This document shows positions 7,882 through 55,046 of a stretch of 64,000 nucleotides of DNA, in pieces. Within the stretch, counting starts at the first letter, position 1. Each line of letters starts with the position of its first letter. The notes below the pieces were generated by a model that saw nothing but the letters and a program-made list of their open reading frames with translations, was not told the origin of the DNA and did not search any database. Source of the stretch: Thiosulfatihalobacter marinus (GTDB lineage Bacteria > Pseudomonadota > Alphaproteobacteria > Rhodobacterales > Rhodobacteraceae). The position numbers and the translations under genes were made by a program. The stretch is taken from NCBI RefSeq assembly GCF_016019955.1, contig NZ_JAECRZ010000001.1, forward strand, positions 496,001 to 560,000, written 5' to 3'.

Positions 7882-9306
7882 TCACCCGGCGCAGCAGCTG
7901 AGAGTGGCCATGTCCTTGTCAAAGGTCTGGGCGGCGAGTTTCAACGCTTCGACCGTGGTGAGATAGGGAAAGATCATGGCGCCGAGATCCTCGTAGGTCA
8001 TGCCGGCCTTCAGGGCCATTGCGGCGGTTTGGATGCTGTCCGCGCCTTCGGGCGCAAGGATATGCGCCCCCAGCAGCCGTTTGCTGGATGCGTCGGCCAC
8101 AAGCTTGACCAGCCCGCGCGTGTCGCGTGCCGCCAGTGCCCTGGGCACCGCATCGAGCGGCAGCACCGAGCAGCGGGTCTGGTGGCCGGCAGCCCGCGCG
8201 CCCGCTTCTGTCAGCCCGACACTGGCCACTTGCGGATCGCTGAAAACCACCGCCGGCATTGTCGAATTGTCATAGATCAGGGTGTCGCCGTTCAGGGCAT
8301 TCGTCGCGGCAAGCCTGGCGCCGTAAGCCGCCATATAGACAAACTGATCGCGACCGGTGACATCGCCTGCGGCATAGACAGTGGCCCGGCTTGTCCGCAT
8401 CCTGTCGTCCACCACGATGCCGCCCCGCGCATCAGTGCGGATGCCCGCGTGCGCGAGGCCCAGCTGGTCGGTATTCGGGACGCGCCCGGCCGCGACCAGG
8501 ATGTGTTGGGCCTTGACGATGCGCGCCTGCCCGTCCGCAGTCACGCTGAGCGCCACACCATCCGGGCGTTGTGCGACACGGTCATAGCTTTGCACCGTTT
8601 CGACGGCGATGCCCTCTTGCCTGAAGGCCTGTGTCAGGGCCGTGGCGATCTCGGGCTCTGCTTCGGGGATCAGGCCCCGGCGGGTCAGGAGGGTCACTTT
8701 GGTGCCGGCCCGAGCGAAGACCTGCGCCAGTTCGACACCGATATATCCGCCACCGAGGACGATCAGCGAGTCCGGACGGCGCTGAAGCTGAAGGATCGAG
8801 CTGCTGTCGTGGCAGGCGGTTTCGGCCAGGCCGGGAATGGCCGGCATGTAGGGCCGCGACCCGGTGGCGATGATGATCCTGTTCGCGTCAAGGGGGGTGC
8901 CGTTGACACGCAAGGCGCCGGTCTTGGTGAAACGCGCCGCGCCTTCAATATAGGTGATGCCGCTATGCTGCGGCAGAACCTCGCTGTATTTCGCGGCTCT
9001 CAGGTCATCCACCAGCGCCTGTTTCTGGCGTATCAGGGCAGGCCAGTCGGTGATCTGCGCCGTGACCTTTATCCCGTCAAAGCGGTGAGCTGCGCGGGGG
9101 GCGTGCATGATGTCCATTGCCCGGATCATGGTCTTGGAGGGCACGCAGCCGACGTTGACGCATGTGCCGCCGATGGTGCCATGCCCGATCAGGGCCACGC
9201 GCGCGCCACCTTGTGCCGCCGTGATTGCGGCCGAAAACCCCGCCGAGCCTGCGCCAAGAACCGCAAGATCATAGCCCGCGGCGTTGTTTGGGGATCCATC
9301 TGGCAT
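7882..9306 (-). CDS. merA: Mercuric reductase
   Basis: A flavin-dependent cytosolic enzyme that reduces Hg(II) to volatile Hg(0) with NADPH. The start at 9306 has AGGAAAG upstream and gives 474 residues. It has an FAD-binding N terminus (DLAVLGAGSAGFSAAITAA), the redox-active pair in GGTCVNVGCVPSK, an NADPH-binding GGGYIGVELAQVFARAG and the C-terminal vicinal cysteines in LSCCAG. The last feature separates MerA from other pyridine-nucleotide disulfide oxidoreductases. The N-terminal MerP-like HMA domain present in Tn501-type MerA is missing, which is common in the shorter core-type enzymes. It is the last gene of merTPA. Confidence 0.96.
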   Translation of the reverse strand: MPDGSPNNAAGYDLAVLGAGSAGFSAAITAAQGGARVALIGHGTIGGTCVNVGCVPSKTMIRAMDIMHAPRAAHRFDGIKVTAQITDWPALIRQKQALVDDLRAAKYSEVLPQHSGITYIEGAARFTKTGALRVNGTPLDANRIIIATGSRPYMPAIPGLAETACHDSSSILQLQRRPDSLIVLGGGYIGVELAQVFARAGTKVTLLTRRGLIPEAEPEIATALTQAFRQEGIAVETVQSYDRVAQRPDGVALSVTADGQARIVKAQHILVAAGRVPNTDQLGLAHAGIRTDARGGIVVDDRMRTSRATVYAAGDVTGRDQFVYMAAYGARLAATNALNGDTLIYDNSTMPAVVFSDPQVASVGLTEAGARAAGHQTRCSVLPLDAVPRALAARDTRGLVKLVADASSKRLLGAHILAPEGADSIQTAAMALKAGMTYEDLGAMIFPYLTTVEALKLAAQTFDKDMATLSCCAG

Positions 9307-9452
9307 GGAGACTTCTTTCCTTGGGGGCAAGTGCCCGGTGGTGGCCGGTGGACGACAGGTCCAATCGCGACGCGAAGGTTCTGAACGGCCGCGCGGGGGC
9401 TGGATCGTTGGATGGTGGCGGATTCCGGGGGGCGAAAAGATCGCGGATGAGG

Positions 9453-9752
9453 TCAGGAATTGTCGTCGGTGACGATCGTGCCGCTGTATCCATAGCTGTC
9501 GGATGCGGTTGCCACCGCCTGGGCGGTTGTGACCGCGTCGTCGAACCGGACGGTATAGCGCGCGCTTTCGTCGCCGGAGTTGAAATCGACGTTCAGAATT
9601 TCCGCCGACTCCACCGCCTTGATGGCGTCGGCGGCAATATAGGGGCAGCTTGGACAAGTCAGTCCGCTCACTTCGACCGTGATAACCTGTTCTGCGGCCC
9701 AGCTTGTTGTCGCGGCCAGTCCGGCGGCGATGGTCAGGATCATTCGTTTCAT
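9453..9752 (-). CDS. merP: Periplasmic mercury-binding protein MerP
   Basis: A 99-residue heavy-metal-associated (HMA) domain protein with a Sec signal peptide (MKRMILTIAAGLAATTSWAA). The metal motif is GLTCPSC, where most MerP have GMTCxxC. The body follows the HMA pattern down to the GYSGTI end. It captures Hg(II) in the periplasm and hands it to MerT. It lies 14 nt downstream of merT and 146 nt upstream of merA. That last gap is longer than usual in mer operons and holds nothing I recognise. Confidence 0.94.
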   Translation of the reverse strand: MKRMILTIAAGLAATTSWAAEQVITVEVSGLTCPSCPYIAADAIKAVESAEILNVDFNSGDESARYTVRFDDAVTTAQAVATASDSYGYSGTIVTDDNS

Positions 9753-9766
9753 GGCGACACCTTTTT

Positions 9767-10171
9767 TCAGTAAGACAGGATGTATGGCGTGAGGTAGGGG
9801 AAGATCATGGCGATCGCGGTGACGATGCTGGCGCCCCAAAGCGATCCGCGCATCAGCTTGCGGTTCACCGGTCTGGCACATATCGCGCCCTCGCCACAGG
9901 AGGCTTTTTCGGCCTTGGCCACGCGGTAAAAGCCGTATCCGATGAACAGGACGGCCATCGAGAACGTGAACCATTTGTAGGCATAAAGCGCGGTAAGCTG
10001 AGCGATCCAGACGCCGCCGACGCCAAAGCTGACCAGAACGAGCGGCAGGATACAACAGGATGTCATGGCCAGCGCGCCCAGCAGTCCGCCGGCTGTCGCG
10101 GCTTTCGCGGCCATGTCGCCGTTCGGTTCGTGAGTGGTGGTCTCTTCCATCGACATGACCGTGTCCTGCAT
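9767..10171 (-). CDS. merT: Mercuric ion transporter MerT
   Basis: A 134-residue inner-membrane protein with three hydrophobic helices. The first helix carries the vicinal cysteines in MTSCCILPLVLV, and the cytoplasmic loop carries the second pair region (CGEGAICARP). Both are diagnostic for MerT. It moves Hg(II) from MerP to cytosolic MerA. It is the first gene of the operon, reading from the MerR-type promoter. An alternative ATG five codons downstream (MSMEE) is possible because no strong ribosome-binding site decides between them. Confidence 0.93.
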   Translation of the reverse strand: MQDTVMSMEETTTHEPNGDMAAKAATAGGLLGALAMTSCCILPLVLVSFGVGGVWIAQLTALYAYKWFTFSMAVLFIGYGFYRVAKAEKASCGEGAICARPVNRKLMRGSLWGASIVTAIAMIFPYLTPYILSY

Positions 10172-10189
10172 TGTTCACCCTTGCTACCC

Positions 10190-10220
10190 GGTGTACTGTC
10201 TGTAGTCGCTACAGGTGCAA
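10190..10220 (-). promoter_or_regulatory. MerR-type mer operator/promoter
   Basis: Read on the minus strand, a -35 element TTGCAC and a -10 element TACACC are separated by exactly 19 bp, the overlong spacer characteristic of MerR-family promoters. The spacer contains a perfect dyad, CTGTAG-N3-CTACAG (10200-10214). It drives merTPA. merR reads out in the other direction, and its ribosome-binding site overlaps the outer edge of the element, so bound MerR should also affect its own expression. Confidence 0.85.
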
Positions 10221-10232
10221 GGAGTTTCAGAA

Positions 10233-10649
10233 ATGGCCGGGATCACGAATGCGCGAGGCTATCCGATCGGCGCCATGTCGCGCGAAACCGGGGTGAACAT
10301 CGAAACAATCCGATATTACGAGCGGATCGGACTGATGCCGACCCCGGACCGGACCCCCGGTGGAAACCGGCAATACCGGCACGACCATCTGCTGCGGCTT
10401 GGGTTTATCAAGCGCTGCCGGGAGCTTGGGTTCAACATCCAGGAAATACGCGCCATGCTGGACATGGTGGATCAGAATGGCGTGAGTTGCAGCAAGGTGC
10501 ATGAAATGACCACCGGCCATCTGCGCTCGGTACAGCAGAAAATCCGGCACCTGAAGGAAATGGAACGGGTTCTGGCGGGAATGGCCGAGCAATGCGCAAA
10601 GGGCGACATGCCCCAATGTGCGATCATTGAAGCCTTGTTCGCGGCGTGA
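10233..10649 (+). CDS. merR: Mercury-responsive regulator MerR
   Basis: A 138-residue MerR-family activator-repressor. The ATG at 10233 has AAGGAG 8 nt upstream; a GTG five codons earlier is less likely. The winged helix-turn-helix reads IGAMSRETGVNIETIRYYERIGL, followed by RQYRHDHLLRLGFIKRCRELGF and the long dimerisation helix. Three cysteines (GVSCSKV, EQCAKG and MPQCAI) sit at the positions of the Hg(II)-binding triad of MerR. It underwinds the 19-bp-spacer promoter when Hg(II) is bound. Confidence 0.93.
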   Translation: MAGITNARGYPIGAMSRETGVNIETIRYYERIGLMPTPDRTPGGNRQYRHDHLLRLGFIKRCRELGFNIQEIRAMLDMVDQNGVSCSKVHEMTTGHLRSVQQKIRHLKEMERVLAGMAEQCAKGDMPQCAIIEALFAA

Positions 10650-10798
10650 GGCACCGTGTCCTGCCGGGGCATGTGGGTGCCGTCGGGAACGCGCGGAGCA
10701 TGGGATTGTCACCGAAAACGACAAGAACTGTCGGAAAGGCGCAGATTCGACGGCAGGATTGGGTTTTCCTGATCGGCAAAAGCGGACGGGAGAGCGAC

Positions 10799-12361
10799 AT
10801 GGCAGAAACGGCGACACGCAAACGGCGCGGTGGCGGACGGGCCGGAAACGCCGCGCGGCGCAAGAAGGCCGGGGCGATTGAACAGATGCCCTGGCGTTTG
10901 CCGGTCAATATCGACCGCCCGACCGAACCGCTGAGCGAAGAGGGTGTGGCCCGAATTCATGACGGGGCCATGCGCATCCTGGAGGAGATCGGCATAGAAT
11001 TCTTCAATGCCGAGGCGCGCGCCCTCCTCAAACAGGCCGGGTGCAACGTAGAGGGCGACCGCGTGCGCATGGGGCGCGATTTCGTGATGGAGATGGTCGG
11101 CAAGGCCCCGTCCAGCTGGACCCTGACGCCGCGCAACCCGGATCACCGCCTGGTCATGGGCGACAATCACATCTTGTTCGGCAATGTCTCTTCACCGCCG
11201 AACTATTGGGATCTGTCGCTGGGGCGCAAGGTGCCTGGCACGCGCGAGCAATGCGCAAACCTTCTCAGGCTGACGCAGTATTTCAACTGTATCCATTTTG
11301 CCGGCGGCTATCCGGTGGAACCACAGGACATCCATGCCTCGATCCGGCATCTGGACGTGTTGTATGACAAACTTACCCTGACCGACAAGGTGGCCCATAC
11401 CTATAGCCTGGGCGCCGAGCGGGTCGAGGATGCGATGGAGATGGTGCGGATTTCGGGTGGCTGGAGCCATGAGGAATTCGAGGCCAGCCCGAAGCTTTAT
11501 ACCAATATCAACTCGACATCGCCGCTCAAGCATGACGAGCCGATGATGGATGGCTGGATCCGCATGGCGCGGCGCAATCAGGGGCTGGTTGTCACCCCGT
11601 TCACGCTTGCCGGCGCGATGGCGCCGGTGACGATGGCGGGGGCGGTTGCCCAATCGCTGGCCGAAGGGCTTTGCGCCATTGCGCTGGCCCAGTACATCCG
11701 CCCCGGCGCGGCCTGTGCGATTGGCACGTTCACCAGCAATGTGGACATGAAAAGCGGCGCCCCGGCCTTTGGCACGCCAGAGTATATGCGAGCCACGCAG
11801 ATGACCGGGCAGATGGCGCGGTTTTACGGATTGCCGATGCGCGCCAGCGGTGTTTGCGCGGCCAATGTGCCGGACGGGCAGGCGATGTGGGAAACGTCGA
11901 ATTCACTTTGGTCGGCCGTACAGGCGGGCGCCAACATGGTGTATCACGCCGCGGGCTGGCTGGAGGGCGGGCTGATCGCCAGCCCGGAAAAATTCATCAT
12001 GGATTGCGAAATCCTTCAGATGATCCAGCGCTATATGGAGCCCGAGCTTTGCGCCACGGGGCCGGATGAAATTGCGCTGGATGCCATTCGCGAGGTTGGC
12101 GGCGCGGGGCATTTCTTTGGCATTCAACACACCCAGGACCGTTATACGACGGCCTTTTACCAGCCGTTTGTCAGTGACTGGCGCAATTACGAGGCCTGGG
12201 ATGCTGCGGGTGGCGTGTGGACCCCGGAGCGTGCGCATCACCTGTACCGGCAGATCCTGGACGATTACGAAGCACCGCCGATGGACGCGGCCATACGCGA
12301 GGAACTGGCGGCTTTCGTGGCGCGCCGCAAGCAGGAGGGCGGCGCCCCCACCGATTTCTGA
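10799..12361 (+). CDS. MttB-family (trimethylamine methyltransferase-like) protein, non-pyrrolysine
   Basis: A 520-residue protein of the COG5598/MttB superfamily with a TIM-barrel body and the family's C-terminal block GGAGHFFGIQHTQDRY. Archaeal MttB inserts pyrrolysine at an in-frame UAG, and no internal UAG interrupts this frame. It therefore belongs to the large non-Pyl group, some members of which demethylate glycine betaine or related quaternary amines to a corrinoid protein. No corrinoid protein, reactivase or methyltransferase-2 gene lies beside it, so substrate and acceptor are unknown. The start at 10799 follows GGGAGAG. The first 25 residues are Lys/Arg/Gly-rich and probably disordered. 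Confidence 0.85.
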   Translation: MAETATRKRRGGGRAGNAARRKKAGAIEQMPWRLPVNIDRPTEPLSEEGVARIHDGAMRILEEIGIEFFNAEARALLKQAGCNVEGDRVRMGRDFVMEMVGKAPSSWTLTPRNPDHRLVMGDNHILFGNVSSPPNYWDLSLGRKVPGTREQCANLLRLTQYFNCIHFAGGYPVEPQDIHASIRHLDVLYDKLTLTDKVAHTYSLGAERVEDAMEMVRISGGWSHEEFEASPKLYTNINSTSPLKHDEPMMDGWIRMARRNQGLVVTPFTLAGAMAPVTMAGAVAQSLAEGLCAIALAQYIRPGAACAIGTFTSNVDMKSGAPAFGTPEYMRATQMTGQMARFYGLPMRASGVCAANVPDGQAMWETSNSLWSAVQAGANMVYHAAGWLEGGLIASPEKFIMDCEILQMIQRYMEPELCATGPDEIALDAIREVGGAGHFFGIQHTQDRYTTAFYQPFVSDWRNYEAWDAAGGVWTPERAHHLYRQILDDYEAPPMDAAIREELAAFVARRKQEGGAPTDF

Positions 12362-12433
12362 AAAGGTCGGAGGGCATTGTTCTTTCAGGTGAAACGCGCC
12401 TAGACTGCCCGGCAACAGGTGCGGGAGAGTCAG

Positions 12434-14179
12434 ATGCGGGCAAAGGATCGCCAGACGCTGGTGGGACGGGCGGAAATGGCGCTGATTGGTGCTCTGGCCG
12501 GGCTTGCCATGTGGGTGCTGATCGAGAAGGCCCAGGATGTTCTGACAAACCCGCATGTGTTTGTAACGGTTGTCAGCGCCGTCGCGGGTTTTTTCAGCGT
12601 TCTTCTGGCCCTGTGCGGCCCGGCCAACCTGCGCCGCGGGGCGGCGATTGCGACGGTCCTGGCGCTGCCTGCGGCCGCATTGCTGGGCTGGGCCAGCCTG
12701 CGCTTTGACAGCTTGCAGGCTTTCGTCGGGGCGGGGCATCTGATCCTGGCCTGGGGCGTCCTGTTGTTTGTTGGAACGCCGTTTCTGGCCGTGGCGCTGG
12801 AGGATACCGGCAAGCTGCGCAGCTATTCCCGGCTGTTTGACGCGGCCTGGGGTATTGTCGTGCGCTACAGCACCGCCTGGCTGTTTGTCGCCGTGTTCTG
12901 GGGGGTGGTGTTCCTGTCGGACGCGCTTTTGCAGATCGTGGGTTTGACCCTGATTGAGGACCTGCTGAATTTCGACCCGGTTCCGTTCGGTCTGAGCGGG
13001 CTGATGCTGGGCCTGGGTCTGGCCGTGGTGCACGAAATGCGGGCCTATGTGTCACCCTTTCTGGTGTTGCGGCTGTTGCGCCTGTTGGTGCCGGTCATGC
13101 TGGGGGTCGTCGTGGTTTTCGTCGTCGCCTTTGTGCTTCGTGATCAGGGCGCGCTGTTTGGCGATCTCAGCCCCGCGGCGACGTTGCTGGCTGTCGCCCT
13201 GGGGATGATCTCTTTGGTCAGCGTGGCGTTGGACAAGCGCGATTCGGATGCGGTGCGGATCGGCTGGATGCGGGGCGCAACCGCGATGCTGGCCTTGCTG
13301 TTGCCGGTCATTGGGGGGCTGGCGGCCTATGCGATCTGGCTGCGCGTGGGCGATCACGGATGGACGCCGGCGCGGCTTTTGTCCGTGGCGGTTGCGGGTT
13401 TTGTCATGCTGTACGGGCTGTGCTACGGCGGCGCCGTGATCTTGCGCGGACCATGGATGGAACGCATCCGCCGGGCGAATGTGCGGATCGCGGGAGCCAT
13501 CCTGCTGGTCAGTGCGATCTGGATGACGCCCGTTCTGAATGTCGAGTCGATTTCGGCAAACTCGCAGGCGGCGCGCCTTCTGGACGGGCGGGTTGGCCCC
13601 GACAAGGCCGCGCTGTGGGAAATGGCGCATGACTGGGGCAAAGCGGGAGAAGCGGCGCTGCAAAGGCTTTCGCAGGTCGAAGGCGATCGCGGGGACGTGT
13701 TGCGTGCGGCCATTACCGCGGCACGAACCGCGCCGGAGCCGGCGGCGCCGGCCACCGAGGCGGCGGTGCTGGACGCCCGGGCCGGCGCGCTTCATGCGCT
13801 GATCAGGGTGGTGCCGCAGGGGGAGACCCTGCGCCTGGACATGCTGGCGAATTTGCCGGGATACCGGGTGGAAGAGTGGCTGGATCTGTGTCGGGCCCGT
13901 CCCGATCCGGGATGTGTTCTGGTGCTGGAGGATTTCGATCCCGCCCGTCCCGGCACCGAAGGCGTGCTGTTGCTGCCGGGACGCGACATCGGGTACGAAG
14001 CGGTTGGCGTGCGTGTCACCGCAGGGCGGCTGGTGGTTGGGCAATATATCGGAGATTATGGCGCGGGGGTTCTTGACCAGGCCCAGGTTGCCGCTGTTCT
14101 GCGAGGTGAATACCGCGTTGCGCCCTCCAGCCGCAAGTCCCTGTGGATCGGCGAGACCGAGATTTCTCCGCAGAACTGA
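12434..14179 (+). CDS. DUF4153 domain integral membrane protein
   Basis: A 581-residue protein with about ten hydrophobic segments over the first 370 residues and a soluble C-terminal domain of some 200 residues. The DUF4153 landmark is the RVGDHGWTPARLLSVAVAG region followed by the conserved TPVLNVESISANSQAARL, after which the chain leaves the membrane. The ATG at 12434 has GGGAGAG upstream. Function is unknown in the family. It lies 72 nt after the MttB-family gene and 62 nt before the H-NOX-like gene on the same strand, with no clear operon link. Confidence 0.75.
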   Translation: MRAKDRQTLVGRAEMALIGALAGLAMWVLIEKAQDVLTNPHVFVTVVSAVAGFFSVLLALCGPANLRRGAAIATVLALPAAALLGWASLRFDSLQAFVGAGHLILAWGVLLFVGTPFLAVALEDTGKLRSYSRLFDAAWGIVVRYSTAWLFVAVFWGVVFLSDALLQIVGLTLIEDLLNFDPVPFGLSGLMLGLGLAVVHEMRAYVSPFLVLRLLRLLVPVMLGVVVVFVVAFVLRDQGALFGDLSPAATLLAVALGMISLVSVALDKRDSDAVRIGWMRGATAMLALLLPVIGGLAAYAIWLRVGDHGWTPARLLSVAVAGFVMLYGLCYGGAVILRGPWMERIRRANVRIAGAILLVSAIWMTPVLNVESISANSQAARLLDGRVGPDKAALWEMAHDWGKAGEAALQRLSQVEGDRGDVLRAAITAARTAPEPAAPATEAAVLDARAGALHALIRVVPQGETLRLDMLANLPGYRVEEWLDLCRARPDPGCVLVLEDFDPARPGTEGVLLLPGRDIGYEAVGVRVTAGRLVVGQYIGDYGAGVLDQAQVAAVLRGEYRVAPSSRKSLWIGETEISPQN

Positions 14180-14241: not shown

Positions 14242-14829
14242 ATGCATGGGCTTATCAACAGGGCAATCCAGGTCTTTGTTCAAGACAGCTATGGGCACCC
14301 CCGCTGGGCCGAGGTCATCCGGCAGGCCGAGGTCGAGACCGTGGAATTCGAGGCGATGCTGCATTATGACGATGACGTGACCGACCGCCTTATCGCGTCG
14401 GCATCCAACGTGATCGGCGCGCCGCAGGAAACCGTTCTGGAGGATATCGGCACCTATCTGGTGTCCCACCCCAATGTCGAGGCGTTGCGCAGATTGCTGC
14501 GGTTCGGCGGTGTCACATTTGTGGAATTCCTGCATTCACTGGACGATCTCCCGGACCGCGCGCGCCTGGCGGTGGAGGATCTGCGCCTTCCCGAACTTGA
14601 CCTGCGCGAACACGCACCCAACAGGTTCAGCCTTAACTGTCGGCACGACCGACCCGGCTTTGGCCATGTGATGGTGGGTGTCTTGCGCGCATTGGCCGAC
14701 GATTATGGCGCGCTCGTGTTCCTGGAGCATCGTGGGGGCGGGCCGGGGCAGGAGGTGATAGACATTACCCTGATCGAAACCGCCTTTGCCAGCGGGCGCA
14801 GTTTCGATCTGGGTGCAAGGGTCGGGTAG
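14242..14829 (+). CDS. H-NOX (heme NO-binding) domain protein lacking the proximal histidine
   Basis: A 195-residue stand-alone H-NOX (HNOB) domain. The ATG at 14242 gives the canonical start MHGLINRAIQ, and the family's helical core can be followed through TFVEFLHSLDDL. In H-NOX proteins that helix continues with the heme-ligating histidine (DEVH in the Thermoanaerobacter protein, His102). Here the codon is CCG, giving Pro104 (DDLP). The YxSxR heme-propionate motif is also degenerate (C133-R-H-D-R137, only the arginine kept). Heme, and hence NO binding, may be lost unless another residue such as His98 substitutes. It is followed 3 nt later by an HNOBA-GGDEF gene, the usual partner. Confidence 0.88.
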   Translation: MHGLINRAIQVFVQDSYGHPRWAEVIRQAEVETVEFEAMLHYDDDVTDRLIASASNVIGAPQETVLEDIGTYLVSHPNVEALRRLLRFGGVTFVEFLHSLDDLPDRARLAVEDLRLPELDLREHAPNRFSLNCRHDRPGFGHVMVGVLRALADDYGALVFLEHRGGGPGQEVIDITLIETAFASGRSFDLGARVG

Positions 14830-14832
14830 CCC

Positions 14833-15843
14833 ATGGCCTGCATCGACGAATTGACCGGGCTGCTGGATACGCTGTGTCCGATGCATGTGGTTTTGGACGG
14901 TACGGGGCATATCATCCATGCCGGACCGACCGCCCGGAAACTGCATGGCGACAGGCCCCTGGAAGGCCAGCGGTTCCTGGAGTTGTTCGAGCTGTGCCGC
15001 CCGCGGGCGGTGTCTTCGATGCCGCAGTTGATGGCGGTGGCGGGGGTCAAGCTGCATCTGAAGACGCGGGGTGAACCGCAGACAGGGCTCAAGGGGGTTC
15101 TGTGCCCGTTGCCCGCCATCGACGGGGCCGTGGTGAACCTGAGTTTCGGGATATCGATCATAGATGCGGTGCGCGACTATGCGCTGACTTCGGCGGATTT
15201 CGCGGCCACGGACCTGACCGTGGAGATGTTGTATCTGGTCGAGGCGAAATCCGCCGCGATGGAGGCGTCGCGCAAGCTCAATCAACGTTTGCAGGGCGCC
15301 ATGATCGCGGCCGAGGAACAGGCCTTTACGGATACCCTGACCGGTTTGAAGAACCGGCGCGCGCTGGAACATATCCTGCCACGCCTGTTGCAGGAACGGC
15401 AGCCCTTTGGCCTGATGCAGATCGACCTGGATTTCTTCAAGGCGGTGAACGACACGATGGGCCACGCGGCGGGCGATCACGTTTTGCAATGTGTCGCGCG
15501 TGTATTGGTGGATTCAAGCCGCGATGACGATTGTGTGGCGCGCGTGGGCGGGGATGAATTCGTACTGGTGTTTCGCGGCATTACAAAGCCAGAGATCCTG
15601 GAACGTATCGCGGAACGCATCATTTCGGAGGTCGAGGCGCCGATGCCCTTTGGCGATGCGACCTGCAAGATTTCGGCCAGCGTTGGTATCTCGATCTACA
15701 ACGGCGAGGCCGCGCATGAGGTGAGCATCGAACAGTTGATGGCCGATGCGGATACGGCGCTTTACGCCTCAAAACACAAGGGGCGCGCGACCAGCACAAT
15801 TTTTTCGGCGGATCTGCGCAGCAAAGGCGAGCAGACAGGGTAA
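14833..15843 (+). CDS. Diguanylate cyclase with N-terminal HNOBA (H-NOX-associated) domain
   Basis: A 336-residue cytosolic protein. Residues about 12-125 match the HNOBA/PAS-like domain that follows H-NOX in guanylate cyclases (CPMHVVLDGTGHIIHAG, GQRFLELFELCRP, and a late LSFGISIIDAVRDYAL). A coiled helix about 135-160 leads to a GGDEF domain with an intact active-site motif G239-G-D-E-F243. The I-site RxxD (R230, D233) stands five residues before it, so catalysis and product inhibition both look possible. It should make c-di-GMP under control of the upstream H-NOX-like protein. It starts 3 nt after that gene's stop and clearly forms one operon with it. Confidence 0.92.
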   Translation: MACIDELTGLLDTLCPMHVVLDGTGHIIHAGPTARKLHGDRPLEGQRFLELFELCRPRAVSSMPQLMAVAGVKLHLKTRGEPQTGLKGVLCPLPAIDGAVVNLSFGISIIDAVRDYALTSADFAATDLTVEMLYLVEAKSAAMEASRKLNQRLQGAMIAAEEQAFTDTLTGLKNRRALEHILPRLLQERQPFGLMQIDLDFFKAVNDTMGHAAGDHVLQCVARVLVDSSRDDDCVARVGGDEFVLVFRGITKPEILERIAERIISEVEAPMPFGDATCKISASVGISIYNGEAAHEVSIEQLMADADTALYASKHKGRATSTIFSADLRSKGEQTG

Positions 15844-15869: not shown

Positions 15870-16784
15870 TCAGCCTTGCGCCAATGCCTCCATCCGCTTG
15901 CGCGCCTCGGCGGTCATGTGATCGACGAACAGACGGATCTTGGGATCCTGAAATTTCCGGTGCGGGTAAAGGCAGCCAAAGCTGGCCGGAACCGGCGGGG
16001 TATCCGGCAACACCTCCACCAATGCGCCGGTTGCCAGATGGCGCACCACGTCGAACCTGGGCTTGTTGGCGATGCCGGCGCCGTCCAGCGCCCATTCGGT
16101 CAAAACATCGCCATCATCCGCATCAAAGCGTCCCGCCGCCTCGATCTTGCGCGGGCCGGTCTCGGTTTGCAGAGTCCAGAAATATTCGGGTGAGCGGGGG
16201 AAGCGCAGCAGAAGACAGTTGTGCCCGCGCAGCAGATCTTCGGGACGCCGGGGGGTTCCGGCGTGCTCCAGGTAGGCGGGGGCGGCGACAAGCACCCGTC
16301 TGCAATCGGCGATCTTGCGCAGCTTGAGATTGGAATCCTTCAGTTCGCCCAGAACAAAGGCCACGTCCAACCCGTCCTCGAACAGGTCAACCTTGCGGTC
16401 CGACAGGCGCAGCCGGATGTCCACAAGCGGATAGGCGGCGGTAAATTGAGGAATCAGCGGCGCCACGATCCGCCGCCCGATCCCCAGCGGCGCCGTGACC
16501 CGAATCGTGCCGCGCGGTGTATCGGAAAACCCGGCAACCACGGCCTCGGCCTCTTCCAGCGCATCGATCACCTTGCGCGCGTGATCATAGAACACCTTGC
16601 CCACTTCCGTCGGGCTGAGATTGCGTGTGGTCCGGTTGAACAGGCGCACGCCCAAACGTTGCTCGAGTTCCTTGACCCGGTTGGAGGCGACGGCCGGAGT
16701 CAGCCGCAGATCCCGCCCACCGGATGTGATGGACCCAAGCTCGACCACGCGCACGAACACCCGGAGGCTTTCAAGATAAGGCAT
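15870..16784 (-). CDS. LysR-family transcriptional regulator
   Basis: A 304-residue LTTR. The N-terminal winged helix reads LRVFVRVVELGSITSGGRDLRLTPAVASNRVKELEQRLGVRLF and is followed by TRNLSPTEVG. The remainder is the substrate-binding-like effector domain (GTIRVTAPLGIGRRIVAPLI). It is divergent from xdhA with a 180-bp shared AT-richer gap, the normal LTTR-target arrangement. Control of the purine operon is a reasonable inference. The effector is unknown. Confidence 0.9.
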   Translation of the reverse strand: MPYLESLRVFVRVVELGSITSGGRDLRLTPAVASNRVKELEQRLGVRLFNRTTRNLSPTEVGKVFYDHARKVIDALEEAEAVVAGFSDTPRGTIRVTAPLGIGRRIVAPLIPQFTAAYPLVDIRLRLSDRKVDLFEDGLDVAFVLGELKDSNLKLRKIADCRRVLVAAPAYLEHAGTPRRPEDLLRGHNCLLLRFPRSPEYFWTLQTETGPRKIEAAGRFDADDGDVLTEWALDGAGIANKPRFDVVRHLATGALVEVLPDTPPVPASFGCLYPHRKFQDPKIRLFVDHMTAEARKRMEALAQG

Positions 16785-16964
16785 GTCGTCCTTTCCGCAT
16801 CACGCGCCAAAACGCCACTAAATGTATCATAAGCGCAGAATGCACCGGCGTTTTTCAAGGATTTGTTGAAATAGATTAGCGAAAACCCCCATTTCATTGA
16901 AGGCGGTCCCTGAACTACAGTGTCAGGACAGGCCATTGCGCCCGTGACAAGCAGTGAGGGTGAG

Positions 16965-18416
16965 ATGCAGACGCGCGACGAAATCCGGTTTCTTCTGAAT
17001 GGGCGTGACGTAGCGGTTCAGGCCGTCGGGGCCGGGGACACGCTGTTAGATTTTCTGCGCATCGACCGGCGTTTGACGGGCACCAAGGAAGGCTGTGCCG
17101 AAGGCGATTGCGGCGCCTGCACGGTGCTGGTGGGCCGTCTGACGCCGACCGGGCTGCGCTATGAGGCGGTGAATGCCTGTATTCGGTTCCTGGCCTCGCT
17201 GGATGGCTGTCACGTGGTGACGGTGGAGTATCTGCAAGGGCCGGACGGGCGGCTGAACCCGGTGCAACAGGCCATGGTCGAGCATCACGGCAGCCAGTGC
17301 GGATTTTGCACACCCGGTTTTGTGATGTCGCTTTATGCCTTGTGGATGGAGACCGCGCGCCCGACCGCGCAAGAGGTGGAAACCGCGATCCAGGGCAATC
17401 TGTGCCGATGTACGGGCTATGCCCCGATCATTCGCGCCGCCCTGGCGATCAATGATTATGGCAGCGCGGGCGCGGATCACCTTGCCCGGGAACGCGCATC
17501 GGTGACGGACCGGCTGATGGCCTTGCGGGATGGTCGTCGGGTGTCGGTGTCTGACGGAACGTCCAGGGCGATCCTGCCCGCCGATGTGGATGATCTGGCG
17601 GCGGTTCTGGCCGAAGCGCCGGGCGCCACCATTGTTGCGGGCGCAACCGATGTGGGCTTGTGGGTGACGAAACAGTTGCGCGATATCTCGCCGGCGGTTT
17701 TTATCGGACAGATTGACGGGTTGCGGAAAATTGACAGGCGGGATGACGGCGTGGTTCTTGGCGCCGGCGTGACCTATACGGATGCTCAGGATATCATTGC
17801 GGAGGATTATCCGCATCTGGCGGCCTATTGGGACCGGATCGCGGGCTGGCAGGTGCGCAACATGGGAACGATTGGCGGCAACATCGCCAACGGTTCGCCC
17901 ATTGGCGACACGCCGCCGGTTCTGATCGCTCTGGGGGCGACGATCACCCTGCGCAGGGGTGGTGAACGTCGGACCCTGCCCTTGGAGGCGTTTTTTGTCG
18001 ATTACGGCAAGCAGGACAGGTCCGCGGGCGAGTTTGTCGAGAGTGTCACGGTGCCGCGCCCGCGGGGCGGGCATCATGCGGCTTACAAGATTTCCAAGCG
18101 GCGGGACGAGGATATCTCGTCGGTGGCGGCGGGGTTCAATATTCAGGTAGAAAACGGGGTGATCGCATCCGCGCGGGTGGCATTTGGCGGCATGGCGGCC
18201 ACGCCAAAACGCGCGGCGGCGGCCGAAGTGGCGCTGGAGGGGCAGCCCTGGGGCGCGCCCGCATTCGAGGCGGCGGCGCGGGCGCTAACGTCAGATTTCA
18301 CACCGCTCAGCGATATGCGGGCAACATCGGAGTACCGGATGAAAGTGGCGCAAAACCTGTTCCGTCGCTTTTGGCTGGAACAATCGGGCGAGGACGCGCG
18401 CCTGAAAAGCGCGTGA
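16965..18416 (+). CDS. xdhA: Xanthine dehydrogenase small subunit (2Fe-2S and FAD domains)
   Basis: A 483-residue subunit that carries electrons from the molybdenum site to NAD+. The N-terminal plant-type [2Fe-2S] domain has CAEGDCGAC (about residues 44-52) and the second cluster domain has CGFCTPGF and CRCTGY. A CO-dehydrogenase-type FAD domain follows (IVAGATDVGLWVTKQLRD, WQVRNMGTIGGNIANGSPIGD). The ATG at 16965 with GAGGGTGAG before it is preferred to an upstream GTG. It is the first gene of xdhABC, 10 nt before xdhB. Confidence 0.96.
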   Translation: MQTRDEIRFLLNGRDVAVQAVGAGDTLLDFLRIDRRLTGTKEGCAEGDCGACTVLVGRLTPTGLRYEAVNACIRFLASLDGCHVVTVEYLQGPDGRLNPVQQAMVEHHGSQCGFCTPGFVMSLYALWMETARPTAQEVETAIQGNLCRCTGYAPIIRAALAINDYGSAGADHLARERASVTDRLMALRDGRRVSVSDGTSRAILPADVDDLAAVLAEAPGATIVAGATDVGLWVTKQLRDISPAVFIGQIDGLRKIDRRDDGVVLGAGVTYTDAQDIIAEDYPHLAAYWDRIAGWQVRNMGTIGGNIANGSPIGDTPPVLIALGATITLRRGGERRTLPLEAFFVDYGKQDRSAGEFVESVTVPRPRGGHHAAYKISKRRDEDISSVAAGFNIQVENGVIASARVAFGGMAATPKRAAAAEVALEGQPWGAPAFEAAARALTSDFTPLSDMRATSEYRMKVAQNLFRRFWLEQSGEDARLKSA

Positions 18417-18426
18417 GGGGGCAGAG

Positions 18427-20733
18427 ATGAAACAGACCGTGAGCATCCAGGGCGGCGTGCATACCGATCTGCACCATGACAGCGCGATCAAGCACGTGAC
18501 CGGCGCGGCCGAGTATTGCGACGATATTGCCGAACCGGTGGATACATTGCACGCCTATCTTGGCACGTCGAAAATTGCCCATGCGCGGATCAAATCGATT
18601 GACCTGGGCGCGGTGCGCGCCGCGCCGGGGGTTGTTGGCGTATTGACGGCCCGGGACATTCCCGGCGTGAACGATGTCAGCCCGACGGGCCGGCATGACG
18701 AACCGGTATTTGCCACCGACACGATTGAATTCTGGGGACAGCCGCTTTTTGCCGTGGTGGCCGAAAGCCGGGACATTGCGCGCCGTGCGGCCGAACTGGC
18801 GGTGGTGGAAACCGAGGCATTGGCGCATGAAACCGATGTGGCAAGCGCCATGGACGCGGGCTATCCGCATGTCACGGATCCACTCAAGCTGGAGCGGGGT
18901 GACGTGCGCGAAGGGCAAAAAGCCCCGCGCCGGATCAAGGGACAAATGCGCGTTGGCGGGCAGGATCACATGTATCTGGAAGGGCACATTGCCTTTGCGA
19001 TGCCGGGCGAGGACGAGGATGTGATCGTGCATTCCTCGACCCAGCACCCAAGCGAGGCGCAGCATATGGTGGCGCATGTTCTGGGGGTGCCGTCCAATGC
19101 GGTGGTGGTGAATGTGCGCCGCATGGGCGGCGGTTTTGGCGGCAAGGAAAGCCAGATGAACCTGTTTTGCGCCGTGGCGGCGCTGGCGGCCAAGACATGG
19201 AACCGGGCGGTGAAAATCCGCCCCGACCGCGACCAGGACATGGAAAGCACCGGAAAACGGCATGATTTCCTGGTGGATTATGACGTTGCCTTTGACGAAA
19301 CGGGGCGCATTCAAGCGGTCGAAGGGCAATTTGCGGCGCGCTGCGGCTGGACATCGGATCTGAGCGGGCCAGTCACGGACCGCGCCCTGTTTCACGCCGA
19401 CAATGCCTATTATTACCCGCATGTGCGCCTGACCAGCCGCCCGATGAAAACCAACACCGTTTCCAACACCGCGTTTCGCGGCTTTGGCGGCCCTCAGGGG
19501 GTGATCGCCGCCGAACGCATGATCGAGGAAATCGCCTATGATCTGGGCCGCGATCCGCTGGAGATACGCAAGGCGAATTTCTATGGGATTCATGGGGATG
19601 TGACGCCGTATCACCAGACGGTCGAGGACAATATCCTGCCCCGCCTCGTTGAAGATCTGGAGCAGGATTGTGATTATCAGGCCCGGCGCGCGGCGGTTCT
19701 GGCACAGAATGCAAAAGGCGGGATCATCCGCAAGGGACTCGCGCTGACTCCGGTGAAGTTCGGGATCAGCTTTACGGCGACCTGGTACAATCAGGCCGGA
19801 TCGCTGGTGCATATCTACAATGACGGGTCGATCATGCTGAACCATGGCGGCACCGAAATGGGCCAGGGGCTGAACACCAAGGTCGCACAGGTGGTTGCCG
19901 ATGCGTTTCAGGTGGATTTCGACCGGATCAAGATCACCAGAACCACCACGGAAAAGGTGCCCAACACCTCGGCGACGGCGGCGTCCAGCGGGACGGACCT
20001 GAACGGGATGGCGGCGCTGAACGCCTGTGATCAGATCAAGGCGCGGCTGGTTGACTGGGCAGTGGGCCGATGGAACGTGACGCCCGATGAGGTGCAGTTT
20101 CATCCAAACCAAGTGAACATTGGCGGGGAAGTTATTGCATTCAATGACTTTATCAAGATGGCCTATATGGCGCGCGTTCAGCTTTGGGCGGCGGGATTCT
20201 ACAAGACGCCAAAGATTCACTGGGACCGGGAAAAAGGCATGGGCCGCCCGTTCTATTATTTCGCCTATGGCGCGGCGGCGGCCGAGGTCAGCGTGGACAC
20301 GCTGACGGGCGAATACAGCGTGGATCGTGTGGATGTGTTGCACGATGTCGGCAAGTCGCTGAACCCGGTGCTGGACAAGGGGCAGGTGGAAGGCGCGTTC
20401 GTGCAGGGCATGGGCTGGCTGACCACGGAAGAGCTTTGGTGGGACGATGCCGGGCGGCTGCGCACCCACGCGCCCAGCACCTACAAGATCCCGCTGGCCA
20501 GCGATGTGCCGCGAGAGTTCAATGTCAACCTGGCGGATTGGTCGGAAAACCGGGAACTGACCATCAAGCGATCCAAGGCGGTGGGGGAACCGCCCTTCAT
20601 GCTGCCGATCTGCGTGTTCGAGGCGTTGGGCATGGCGGTGGCGTCGGTGAAGGATTACGCCGAATGCCCCCGGCTGGACGCACCCGCCACCCCGGAACGG
20701 GTGCTGATGGCGATTGAAAGGTTGCGCGGGTAA
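18427..20733 (+). CDS. xdhB: Xanthine dehydrogenase large (molybdopterin-binding) subunit
   Basis: A 768-residue molybdopterin-cytosine-dinucleotide subunit that hydroxylates hypoxanthine and xanthine to urate. It shows the N-terminal a/b hammerhead (HDSAIKHVTGAAEYCDDI), the Mo-site loops GGGFGGKESQ and FRGFGGPQG, and the C-terminal glutamate region (KAVGEPPFMLPICVFEAL) whose Glu is the catalytic base. The stop TAA overlaps the xdhC start (TAATG), so the genes are coupled. Length and motifs are complete. Confidence 0.96.
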   Translation: MKQTVSIQGGVHTDLHHDSAIKHVTGAAEYCDDIAEPVDTLHAYLGTSKIAHARIKSIDLGAVRAAPGVVGVLTARDIPGVNDVSPTGRHDEPVFATDTIEFWGQPLFAVVAESRDIARRAAELAVVETEALAHETDVASAMDAGYPHVTDPLKLERGDVREGQKAPRRIKGQMRVGGQDHMYLEGHIAFAMPGEDEDVIVHSSTQHPSEAQHMVAHVLGVPSNAVVVNVRRMGGGFGGKESQMNLFCAVAALAAKTWNRAVKIRPDRDQDMESTGKRHDFLVDYDVAFDETGRIQAVEGQFAARCGWTSDLSGPVTDRALFHADNAYYYPHVRLTSRPMKTNTVSNTAFRGFGGPQGVIAAERMIEEIAYDLGRDPLEIRKANFYGIHGDVTPYHQTVEDNILPRLVEDLEQDCDYQARRAAVLAQNAKGGIIRKGLALTPVKFGISFTATWYNQAGSLVHIYNDGSIMLNHGGTEMGQGLNTKVAQVVADAFQVDFDRIKITRTTTEKVPNTSATAASSGTDLNGMAALNACDQIKARLVDWAVGRWNVTPDEVQFHPNQVNIGGEVIAFNDFIKMAYMARVQLWAAGFYKTPKIHWDREKGMGRPFYYFAYGAAAAEVSVDTLTGEYSVDRVDVLHDVGKSLNPVLDKGQVEGAFVQGMGWLTTEELWWDDAGRLRTHAPSTYKIPLASDVPREFNVNLADWSENRELTIKRSKAVGEPPFMLPICVFEALGMAVASVKDYAECPRLDAPATPERVLMAIERLRG

Positions 20734-53637: not shown

Positions 53638-54212
53638 TGGCGGTGATCGGGCCCAAGAAAACCCTGCTGCAAACCGTCGGCGTGGTCGTGGTGATGGGCG
53701 CGCTGGCCTGGGCATCGGTGCCATTTTACAACTGGTTCTGCCGGGTCACGGGATTTGGTGGCACGACAAATGTGGCCGAAACCGGATCGGACGTGATTCT
53801 GGACCAGACCATCAAGGTGCGGTTCGATGCCAGCAAGGAACGCGGCATGCCATGGGAGTTCAAGCCCATGCAGCGCGAGATGGAAATCCGCATTGGCGAG
53901 ACCGGGCTGGCGTTTTACGAGGCCTACAATCCGACCGACCGGGTGATCGCGGGATCGGCAAGTTATAATGTCGCGCCGTTTGATGCGGGCGGATATTTCA
54001 CCAAGATCGATTGTTTCTGCTTTACCGAGCAGGTGCTGCAACCGGGCGAGCGGGTTTCGATGCCCGTGACGTTCTACGTGGACCCCGGGATCGTGGACGA
54101 CCGCGACGCGAAATTCGTGAAGTCGATCACGCTGAGCTACACATTCTATGAAATTGACCTGCCCGAAGACAGCGCGTCCTTGACGCCGACGGGTGGTGTG
54201 GACGTAAACTAA
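53637..54212 (+). CDS. ctaG: Cytochrome c oxidase assembly protein CtaG (Cox11)
   Basis: A 191-residue copper chaperone for the CuB site of subunit I. It has one N-terminal membrane helix (LLQTVGVVVVMGALAWASVPFYNWFCRVTGFGG) and a periplasmic Ig-like domain. The copper-binding motif is KIDCFCFTEQ, and the membrane-proximal conserved cysteine is also present. The ATG shares a base with the stop of the 53-aa gene. Confidence 0.96.
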   Translation: MAVIGPKKTLLQTVGVVVVMGALAWASVPFYNWFCRVTGFGGTTNVAETGSDVILDQTIKVRFDASKERGMPWEFKPMQREMEIRIGETGLAFYEAYNPTDRVIAGSASYNVAPFDAGGYFTKIDCFCFTEQVLQPGERVSMPVTFYVDPGIVDDRDAKFVKSITLSYTFYEIDLPEDSASLTPTGGVDVN

Positions 54213-54245
54213 GAGCAAGCCTTCCAACGAGGGAAAAAAGAGAAA

Positions 54246-55046
54246 ATGGCGCACGCGAAAAATCACGATTATCACATTCTGGCCCCGTCCTGGTGGCCGT
54301 TCCTTGGCGCGGTGGGCGGCTTTGTCATGCTGTTCGGCGCGGTTCTGTGGTTCCACGACAGTGGCCCGTGGATGTTCCTGATCGGCCTGGTCGCCGTTCT
54401 TTATGTCATGTTCGGCTGGTGGGCCGAGGTGATTGCCGAAAGCAAGGCGGGCGACCACACCCCGGTTGTGCAGATCGGCCTGCGCTATGGCTTTATCCTG
54501 TTCATCATGTCCGAGGTGATGTTCTTTTCGGCCTGGTTCTGGACCTTCTTCAAACACGCGCTGTATCCGATGGGGCCGCAAAGCCCGGCGGTGGACGGTG
54601 TCTGGCCGCCGGCAGGTATCGAAACCTTCGATCCCTGGCACCTGCCGCTGATCAATACGCTGATCCTGTTGTGTTCGGGCGCGGCGGCGACATGGGCGCA
54701 CCATGCGCTTGTCCACGAAAACAACCGCCAGGACGTGAAATGGGGCCTGAGCATCGCCATCGCCCTTGGGCTGCTGTTCACTTTTTTCCAGGGCTATGAG
54801 TATTACCATGCGTCCTTTGGCTTTGCCGGAAACATCTATGGCGCGTCGTTCTTCATGGCGACGGGGTTCCATGGCGCGCATGTGATCATCGGCACGATCT
54901 TTCTGTTCGTCTGCCTGATGCGCGTGTTGAAGGGGCATTTCACCCCGACCCAGCATGTCGGGTTCGAGGCGGCGGCCTGGTACTGGCACTTCGTGGATGT
55001 TGTGTGGCTGTTCCTGTTTGCCTCGATCTATATCTGGGGCCAGTAA
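54246..55046 (+). CDS. ctaE: Cytochrome c oxidase subunit III
   Basis: A 266-residue seven-helix subunit. Characteristic segments are [46 protein letters not shown], and [15 protein letters not shown] with the late [19 protein letters not shown]. It stabilises the proton pathways of subunit I. It follows ctaG by 33 nt with a purine-rich ribosome-binding region. Confidence 0.97.

Follow-up and report, generated by a model that had tools for sequence, protein, structure and literature searches.

The hnoX-like gene and its neighbourhood

The window, that is the whole 64,000-nucleotide stretch of Thiosulfatihalobacter marinus DNA analysed here, carries at positions 14242..14829 of the forward strand an hnoX-like gene encoding a 195-amino-acid protein of H-NOX fold and Group 5 type that lacks the proximal histidine. 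The protein matches the Pfam family PF07700 (HNOB) at 95.1 bits against a cut-off of 25.5 and is the only PF07700 match in this genome. The phmmer alignment to the Nostoc H-NOX (Alr2278, 4iah; E 5.2e-21) is gap-free around column 104, where Pro104 of the window segment SLDDLPDRA (codon CCG, 14551..14553, forward strand) pairs with the histidine of Nostoc NLDNLHARV. In the same alignment C133-R-H135-D-R137 (14638..14652, forward strand) pairs with Nostoc YQSTR, replacing the Y-x-S-x-R motif; two of the three residues of the propionate clamp are gone, and the arginine is the only one retained. Both substitutions had been proposed in a first-pass annotation of this DNA and are borne out by the alignment, and when the family itself was aligned no histidine moved into column 104.

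An H-NOX fold was also predicted for the protein (mean pLDDT 85.9), and Foldseek placed the model closest to Nostoc H-NOX entries of the PDB (query TM 0.80-0.83, best E 1.8e-14), followed by the beta subunit of soluble guanylate cyclase (sGC). In the model, the helix of residues 93-110 runs unbroken across Pro104. The gene dgc (14833..15843, forward strand) begins 3 nt downstream and encodes a diguanylate cyclase with an HNOBA domain (26.3 bits, cut-off 23.4) and a GGDEF domain (140.2 bits), in which the GGDEF and RxxD motifs are present. The annotated view that fold and partner gene are intact agrees with these results, and judged from its sequence the window protein is an H-NOX scaffold in which the canonical haem-ligating set has been lost while the fold and the cyclase partner have been retained.

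The upstream neighbours on the same strand are a gene for a DUF4153 membrane protein (12419..14179; PF13687 29.4 bits, cut-off 27) and one for an MttB-family methyltransferase (10646..12361), whose match to PF06253 (726.5 bits) starts at residue 61 and whose real start is probably further inside the open reading frame. The order mttB, DUF4153, hnox, dgc is the same in Dinoroseobacter shibae, where the H-NOX gene (Dshi_2815) lies on the reverse strand and Dgc1 is encoded by the adjoining gene; the identities to the window proteins are 77% for MttB, 36% for DUF4153, 46% for H-NOX and 50% for the cyclase. The D. shibae DFL12 assembly used here is G416, whose C2 is identical over 3 kb to NC_009955. 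Directly upstream of mttB, at 7882-10649, the window holds open reading frames resembling a mer operon (a reductase, small periplasmic and membrane proteins and a MerR-like regulator). The region 15870-20733 has a LysR regulator encoded on the other strand, ahead of open reading frames resembling xanthine dehydrogenase subunits (16920-20733). The mer-like and the xanthine dehydrogenase-like frames were named from reading the sequence only.

Distribution and conservation of the divergent group

PF07700 was found by profile search in 319 of 390 genomes of the order, and the collected sequences fall into two groups, a canonical one carrying histidine and the Y-S-R residues and a divergent one that includes the window gene and forms a single clade with a support of 99. 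A profile of the divergent group matched 288 of 394 genomes of the family, sampled at about one per genus, and 287 of 393 genera; not all of these matches are strong, and those in G003 and G045, for example, are of the canonical or a third type. A search at the level of the class gave matches in 11 of 387 genomes, six of them in the window's own family (G000-G005) and five in other families. At least four of these five matches, among the 381 genomes beyond G000-G005, are canonical-like (L333, L335, L336 and L337, all with histidine in the column), and the fifth (L338) is marginal. The near absence of outside matches and their largely canonical character indicate that, in this sample, the divergent group is confined to the window's family. 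A third H-NOX type was encountered in L066 and L068; it has a GGDEF neighbour and a shifted histidine motif, which in L066 reads ENHIHVEVKKLYP.

Among 256 unique relatives of the divergent group, all from the same bacterial family, column 104 is proline in 183, histidine in 27 and another residue (Q, N, A, R, S, E, G, T or Y) in 46. The collection of loci is unevenly sampled, being enriched in relatives of the window and in high scorers, and in a less biased subset with mainly one genome per genus, though still our own choice from the top and the bottom of the score lists, the figures were 126 of 173 for proline and 14 of 173 for histidine. All four proline codons are used by the 183 relatives (CCG 89, CCC 58, CCA 18, CCT 18), and a sequencing slip at Pro104 is therefore not the explanation. 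Excluded from the counts were 22 duplicate proteins, two fragments below 150 amino acids, L320 and L323 (below 170 amino acids) and L327, while L066 was assigned to the canonical set by hand. L320, L323 and also L335 are H-NOX genes with one internal stop, possibly broken copies or assembly errors.

The rest of the haem-ligating set has diverged with column 104. The complete combination of Y133, S135 and R137 occurs in none of the 259 family members checked, and two of the three residues in six, whereas all 32 canonical H-NOX proteins carry the column-104 histidine and each of the three clamp residues. Nine columns conserved in canonical H-NOX are strongly diverged in the family, and the four haem-ligating columns are among them. 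Other positions are fixed, namely G70 (255/255), G146 (256/256) and P117 (256/256); the two glycines are probably the hinge glycines, and P117 probably the proximal proline, described in PMC7108781. W22, E37, E67, R87, D153 and Y155 are variable in canonical H-NOX and almost fixed in the divergent family, which together with the putative hinge suggests a regulatory domain that moves.

The association with the cyclase is constant. A GGDEF cyclase adjoins the H-NOX gene on the same strand in all 251 family members with enough downstream sequence (five members with too little were left out), and in these cyclases the GGDEF motif is present in 251 and the RxxD motif in 249, as compared with a GGDEF-type neighbour beside 7 of 32 canonical H-NOX genes. 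In one genome (G184; L092, 131-1714, reverse strand) H-NOX and GGDEF cyclase form a single open reading frame of 528 amino acids, a natural fusion. The genes are under purifying selection, as the median dN/dS was 0.057 and the maximum 0.244 for the 60 usable dS values among 89 close Pro-Pro pairs. Many of these pairs are drawn from Tateyamaria relatives, with dS values close to 1 or exceeding it.

These properties agree with the description of a fifth, very large H-NOX cluster, Group 5, which Lee-Lopez and Yukl (2022; PMC8738867) found from the Paracoccus denitrificans sequence. According to that paper, fewer than 10% of the members have the proximal histidine, most have proline, there is no conserved cysteine, and the authors ask how the members sense anything; GGDEF and MTTB appear in the legend of one figure among the families of neighbouring genes, where they are not tied to a group. 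The share of histidine in our material (14/173 in the subset, 27/256 in the full set) agrees with that figure, and compared by description nothing tested separates the window gene from Group 5, with which it shares proline at the proximal position and the lack of a conserved cysteine. Since these traits are already in print, the window gene is an additional, real and conserved member of a known group.

Changes between histidine and proline at residue 104

The changes at residue 104 are numerous. Between histidine and any other residue, at least 20 changes were required on a tree of H-NOX plus cyclase and at least 19 and at least 21 on two trees of H-NOX only, many inner branches of all three trees having low support. 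A single loss of histidine was rejected on these numbers. Whether histidine would have been regained repeatedly or lost many times in parallel depends on the cost set for a regain: with equal costs, the H-NOX plus cyclase tree gives 18 changes from proline to histidine, and with a costly regain mainly repeated losses of histidine. Exits from proline to one-nucleotide neighbours led to histidine in 18 of 40 cases, where 5-7% would be expected (p below 1e-10), a figure that shares the doubt of the equal-cost count from which it is derived.

Close relatives differ accordingly. Of the seven members of the clade to which the window gene belongs (support 100), six have proline and one (L004) has histidine. 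L110 and L109 are nested among proline members; the next levels are supported at 97-99 and 91-99, respectively, and the nearest join of L109 at 20. The H-NOX of D. shibae, unlike that of the window, retains the histidine in LDDLHDRARLAV while its clamp reads C-W-R, without tyrosine and serine. Inhibition of Dgc1 by the NO-bound form of this protein is reported in PMC7232146 and PMC8846402, which cite Bedrunka 2018. Loss of the clamp alone is thus no proof of haem loss, and if these reports are right, H-NOX can do without the full clamp and the histidine may be what decides.

One may speculate that position 104 is an evolutionary switch, flipping repeatedly by a single nucleotide (CAY to CCY) between a haem-bound, NO-responsive histidine form and a haem-free proline form while the cyclase stays unchanged. 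Proline may then lock helix F in the conformation reached when NO breaks the iron-histidine bond, so that the cyclase would be held as if signalled by NO or would answer another cue. We regard this as a tentative idea with a low probability. A literature search of partial coverage turned up no report of repeated changes between histidine and proline or of the contrast to D. shibae, and no haem measurement on a proline member. What is possibly new is the finding of at least 19-21 changes between histidine and other residues on three trees, which yields natural sister pairs for experiment. A direct swap test is permitted by close relatives that differ at residue 104, such as those in the window's clade, and these contrasts make the mechanism of the group testable.

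A probable regulatory role without haem

The haem-ligating set is lost, this loss is spread through the family, the link to the GGDEF cyclase is constant, purifying selection acts on the genes, and no clear substitute ligand is present. The explanation we favour, and hold to be probable with moderate confidence, is that the window protein, as a Group 5 H-NOX, descends from a haem-binding, cyclase-linked H-NOX whose haem-coordinating set was subsequently lost, and that it now works without haem as a dedicated regulatory subunit of the diguanylate cyclase encoded 3 nt downstream, with a probably inhibitory effect. The subunit would probably restrain the cyclase through the putative hinge glycines, helix F and the HNOBA domain. 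The absence of haem and the physical contact with the cyclase are inferred.

The inhibitory sign is likewise suggested by analogy to published mutants of P. denitrificans. In this species hnoX (Pden_3719) overlaps the GGDEF gene dgcA (Pden_3720), and its H-NOX (L339, from a plasmid record) has proline at column 104 as in the window; it matches the divergent-family profile at 174.3 bits and is more distant from the window protein (34.7% identity). Kumar and Spiro (PMC5588039) state that this protein lacks the axial histidine, and cite an earlier notice of the missing histidine in Rhodobacter sphaeroides. There the hnoX mutant is described as partly deficient in attached growth and biofilm, the dgcAB double mutant as overproducing biofilm, and c-di-GMP as thought to repress biofilm formation; the authors suggest that H-NOX inhibits DgcA and that NO acts via H-NOX. 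In a later hnoX deletion study c-di-GMP could not be measured (PMC12582929). The mutant phenotypes show that a member without the histidine is active in the living cell and that its effect is the opposite of losing both cyclases. Against the favoured explanation stand the interpretation of the authors, who see NO at work via H-NOX despite the missing histidine, and the fact that the cyclase phenotype was that of a double mutant.

The alpha subunit of soluble guanylate cyclase has the H-NOX fold without haem, beside a PAS domain and a cyclase domain. The likeness to the window protein is one of analogy only, as sGC is eukaryotic, fused and a heterodimer with a haem-bearing partner. Canonical H-NOX proteins linked to cyclases or kinases (Nostoc, Shewanella, Legionella and the paralogues in Rhodobacterales) have the fold, the putative hinge glycines, Pro117 and the link to a signalling enzyme in common with the window protein, but they retain histidine and YxSxR (32/32 collected).

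The haem-free H-NOX of Vibrio cholerae, which according to PMC7108781 answers oxidants at a cysteine-zinc site, is a precedent for a further reading, in which a redox or other small-molecule signal is read in the empty pocket. The shift of columns 69, 119 and 140 in the divergent family is in line with it. A conserved set of cysteines is lacking: no cysteine is found among the family columns with an entropy below 0.45, C133, the column examined most closely, is cysteine in 149 of 256 members, and PMC8738867 likewise describes Group 5 as lacking one. We give this reading a small but real chance.

Haem could still be bound and NO sensed via another residue (His98, Cys133 or His142), or haem could be held without a strong protein ligand. 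The reported function of the D. shibae H-NOX without an intact YxSxR, and the interpretation of the P. denitrificans data in PMC5588039 are in line with this, and H98, C133, H76 and H142 are all common in the family. The first-pass annotation had named His98 and Cys133 as possible substitutes, a suggestion that found little support here, while its broader reading of a scaffold that has kept fold and cyclase without the canonical set was supported. Columns 1-181 were scanned for differences in histidine, cysteine, methionine, tyrosine and lysine between 229 members without and 27 with histidine at column 104, and no clear compensating residue emerged. None of the four residues is fixed or clearly different between these groups, with H98 in 145/229 and 14/27 (Fisher p 0.30), C133 in 138/229 and 11/27 (Fisher p 0.06), H142 in 105/229 and 9/27 (p 0.23, by Fisher test only) and H76 with p 0.66. 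H2 differs at p 0.048 uncorrected but is common in both groups (208/229 and 21/27); columns 57 and 108 show the reverse trend, with more histidine or lysine in the histidine members; columns 8 and 82 and a few others differ in ways that may follow the tree. H98 leaned weakly in the compensating direction, on average 2.6 of the six usable independent pairs being opposite and 0.4 the same, which is too few to test and without significance. The residue precedes 104 by six positions in the same helix and probably does not face the haem. Retained haem is accordingly unlikely in our judgement.

Similarly improbable is a purely structural role, in which the H-NOX senses nothing and the cyclase needs it only to be stable or correctly located. 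The lack of a conserved ligand set, the adjacency in 251 of 251 members and the natural fusion are what such a subunit would lead one to expect. The near fixation of W22, E37, E67, R87, D153 and Y155 with the putative hinge kept suggests instead a moving regulatory domain, and the opposite biofilm phenotypes of the P. denitrificans hnoX and dgcAB mutants (PMC5588039) argue in the same direction. That the gene is a decaying NO sensor heading for loss is very improbable, since internal stops were found in 2 of 80 genomes (G251 and G513) while 78 had none, dN/dS is about 0.06, GGDEF is kept in 251 of 251 cyclases, and a deletion phenotype exists in the proline species P. denitrificans (PMC5588039).

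NosP as a replacement NO sensor was considered and rejected, as FIST proteins showed no association with residue 104 in 76 genomes hand-picked from those collected (present in 10 of the 24 genomes of the His type and in 30 of the 52 of the Pro type, p 0.22). The window genome itself carries elsewhere (G000:C22, around 54099-54686; L329) a NosP-like protein of the FIST type, next to which a NahK-like PAS protein and a response regulator of the LuxR type are encoded. The NCBIfam scores are 389 bits for NosP, below the cut-off of 450, and 135 bits for NahK, far below 1500 and cut by the end of the locus; a separate NO-sensing system at this locus is possible.

Proteins of the divergent family are annotated as haem-NO-binding, the Phaeobacter plasmid copy being an example. 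If most members hold no haem, as the favoured reading of a haem-free regulatory subunit would have it, annotations overstate NO sensing in a major group of marine bacteria, in which 287 of 393 genera match the profile, some weakly, and control of c-di-GMP in this group needs another input. The Phaeobacter copy (Phaeobacter sp. G2, L340) belongs to an mttB-hnox-dgc set on a 120-kb plasmid, where it lies beside a glycine cleavage T gene.
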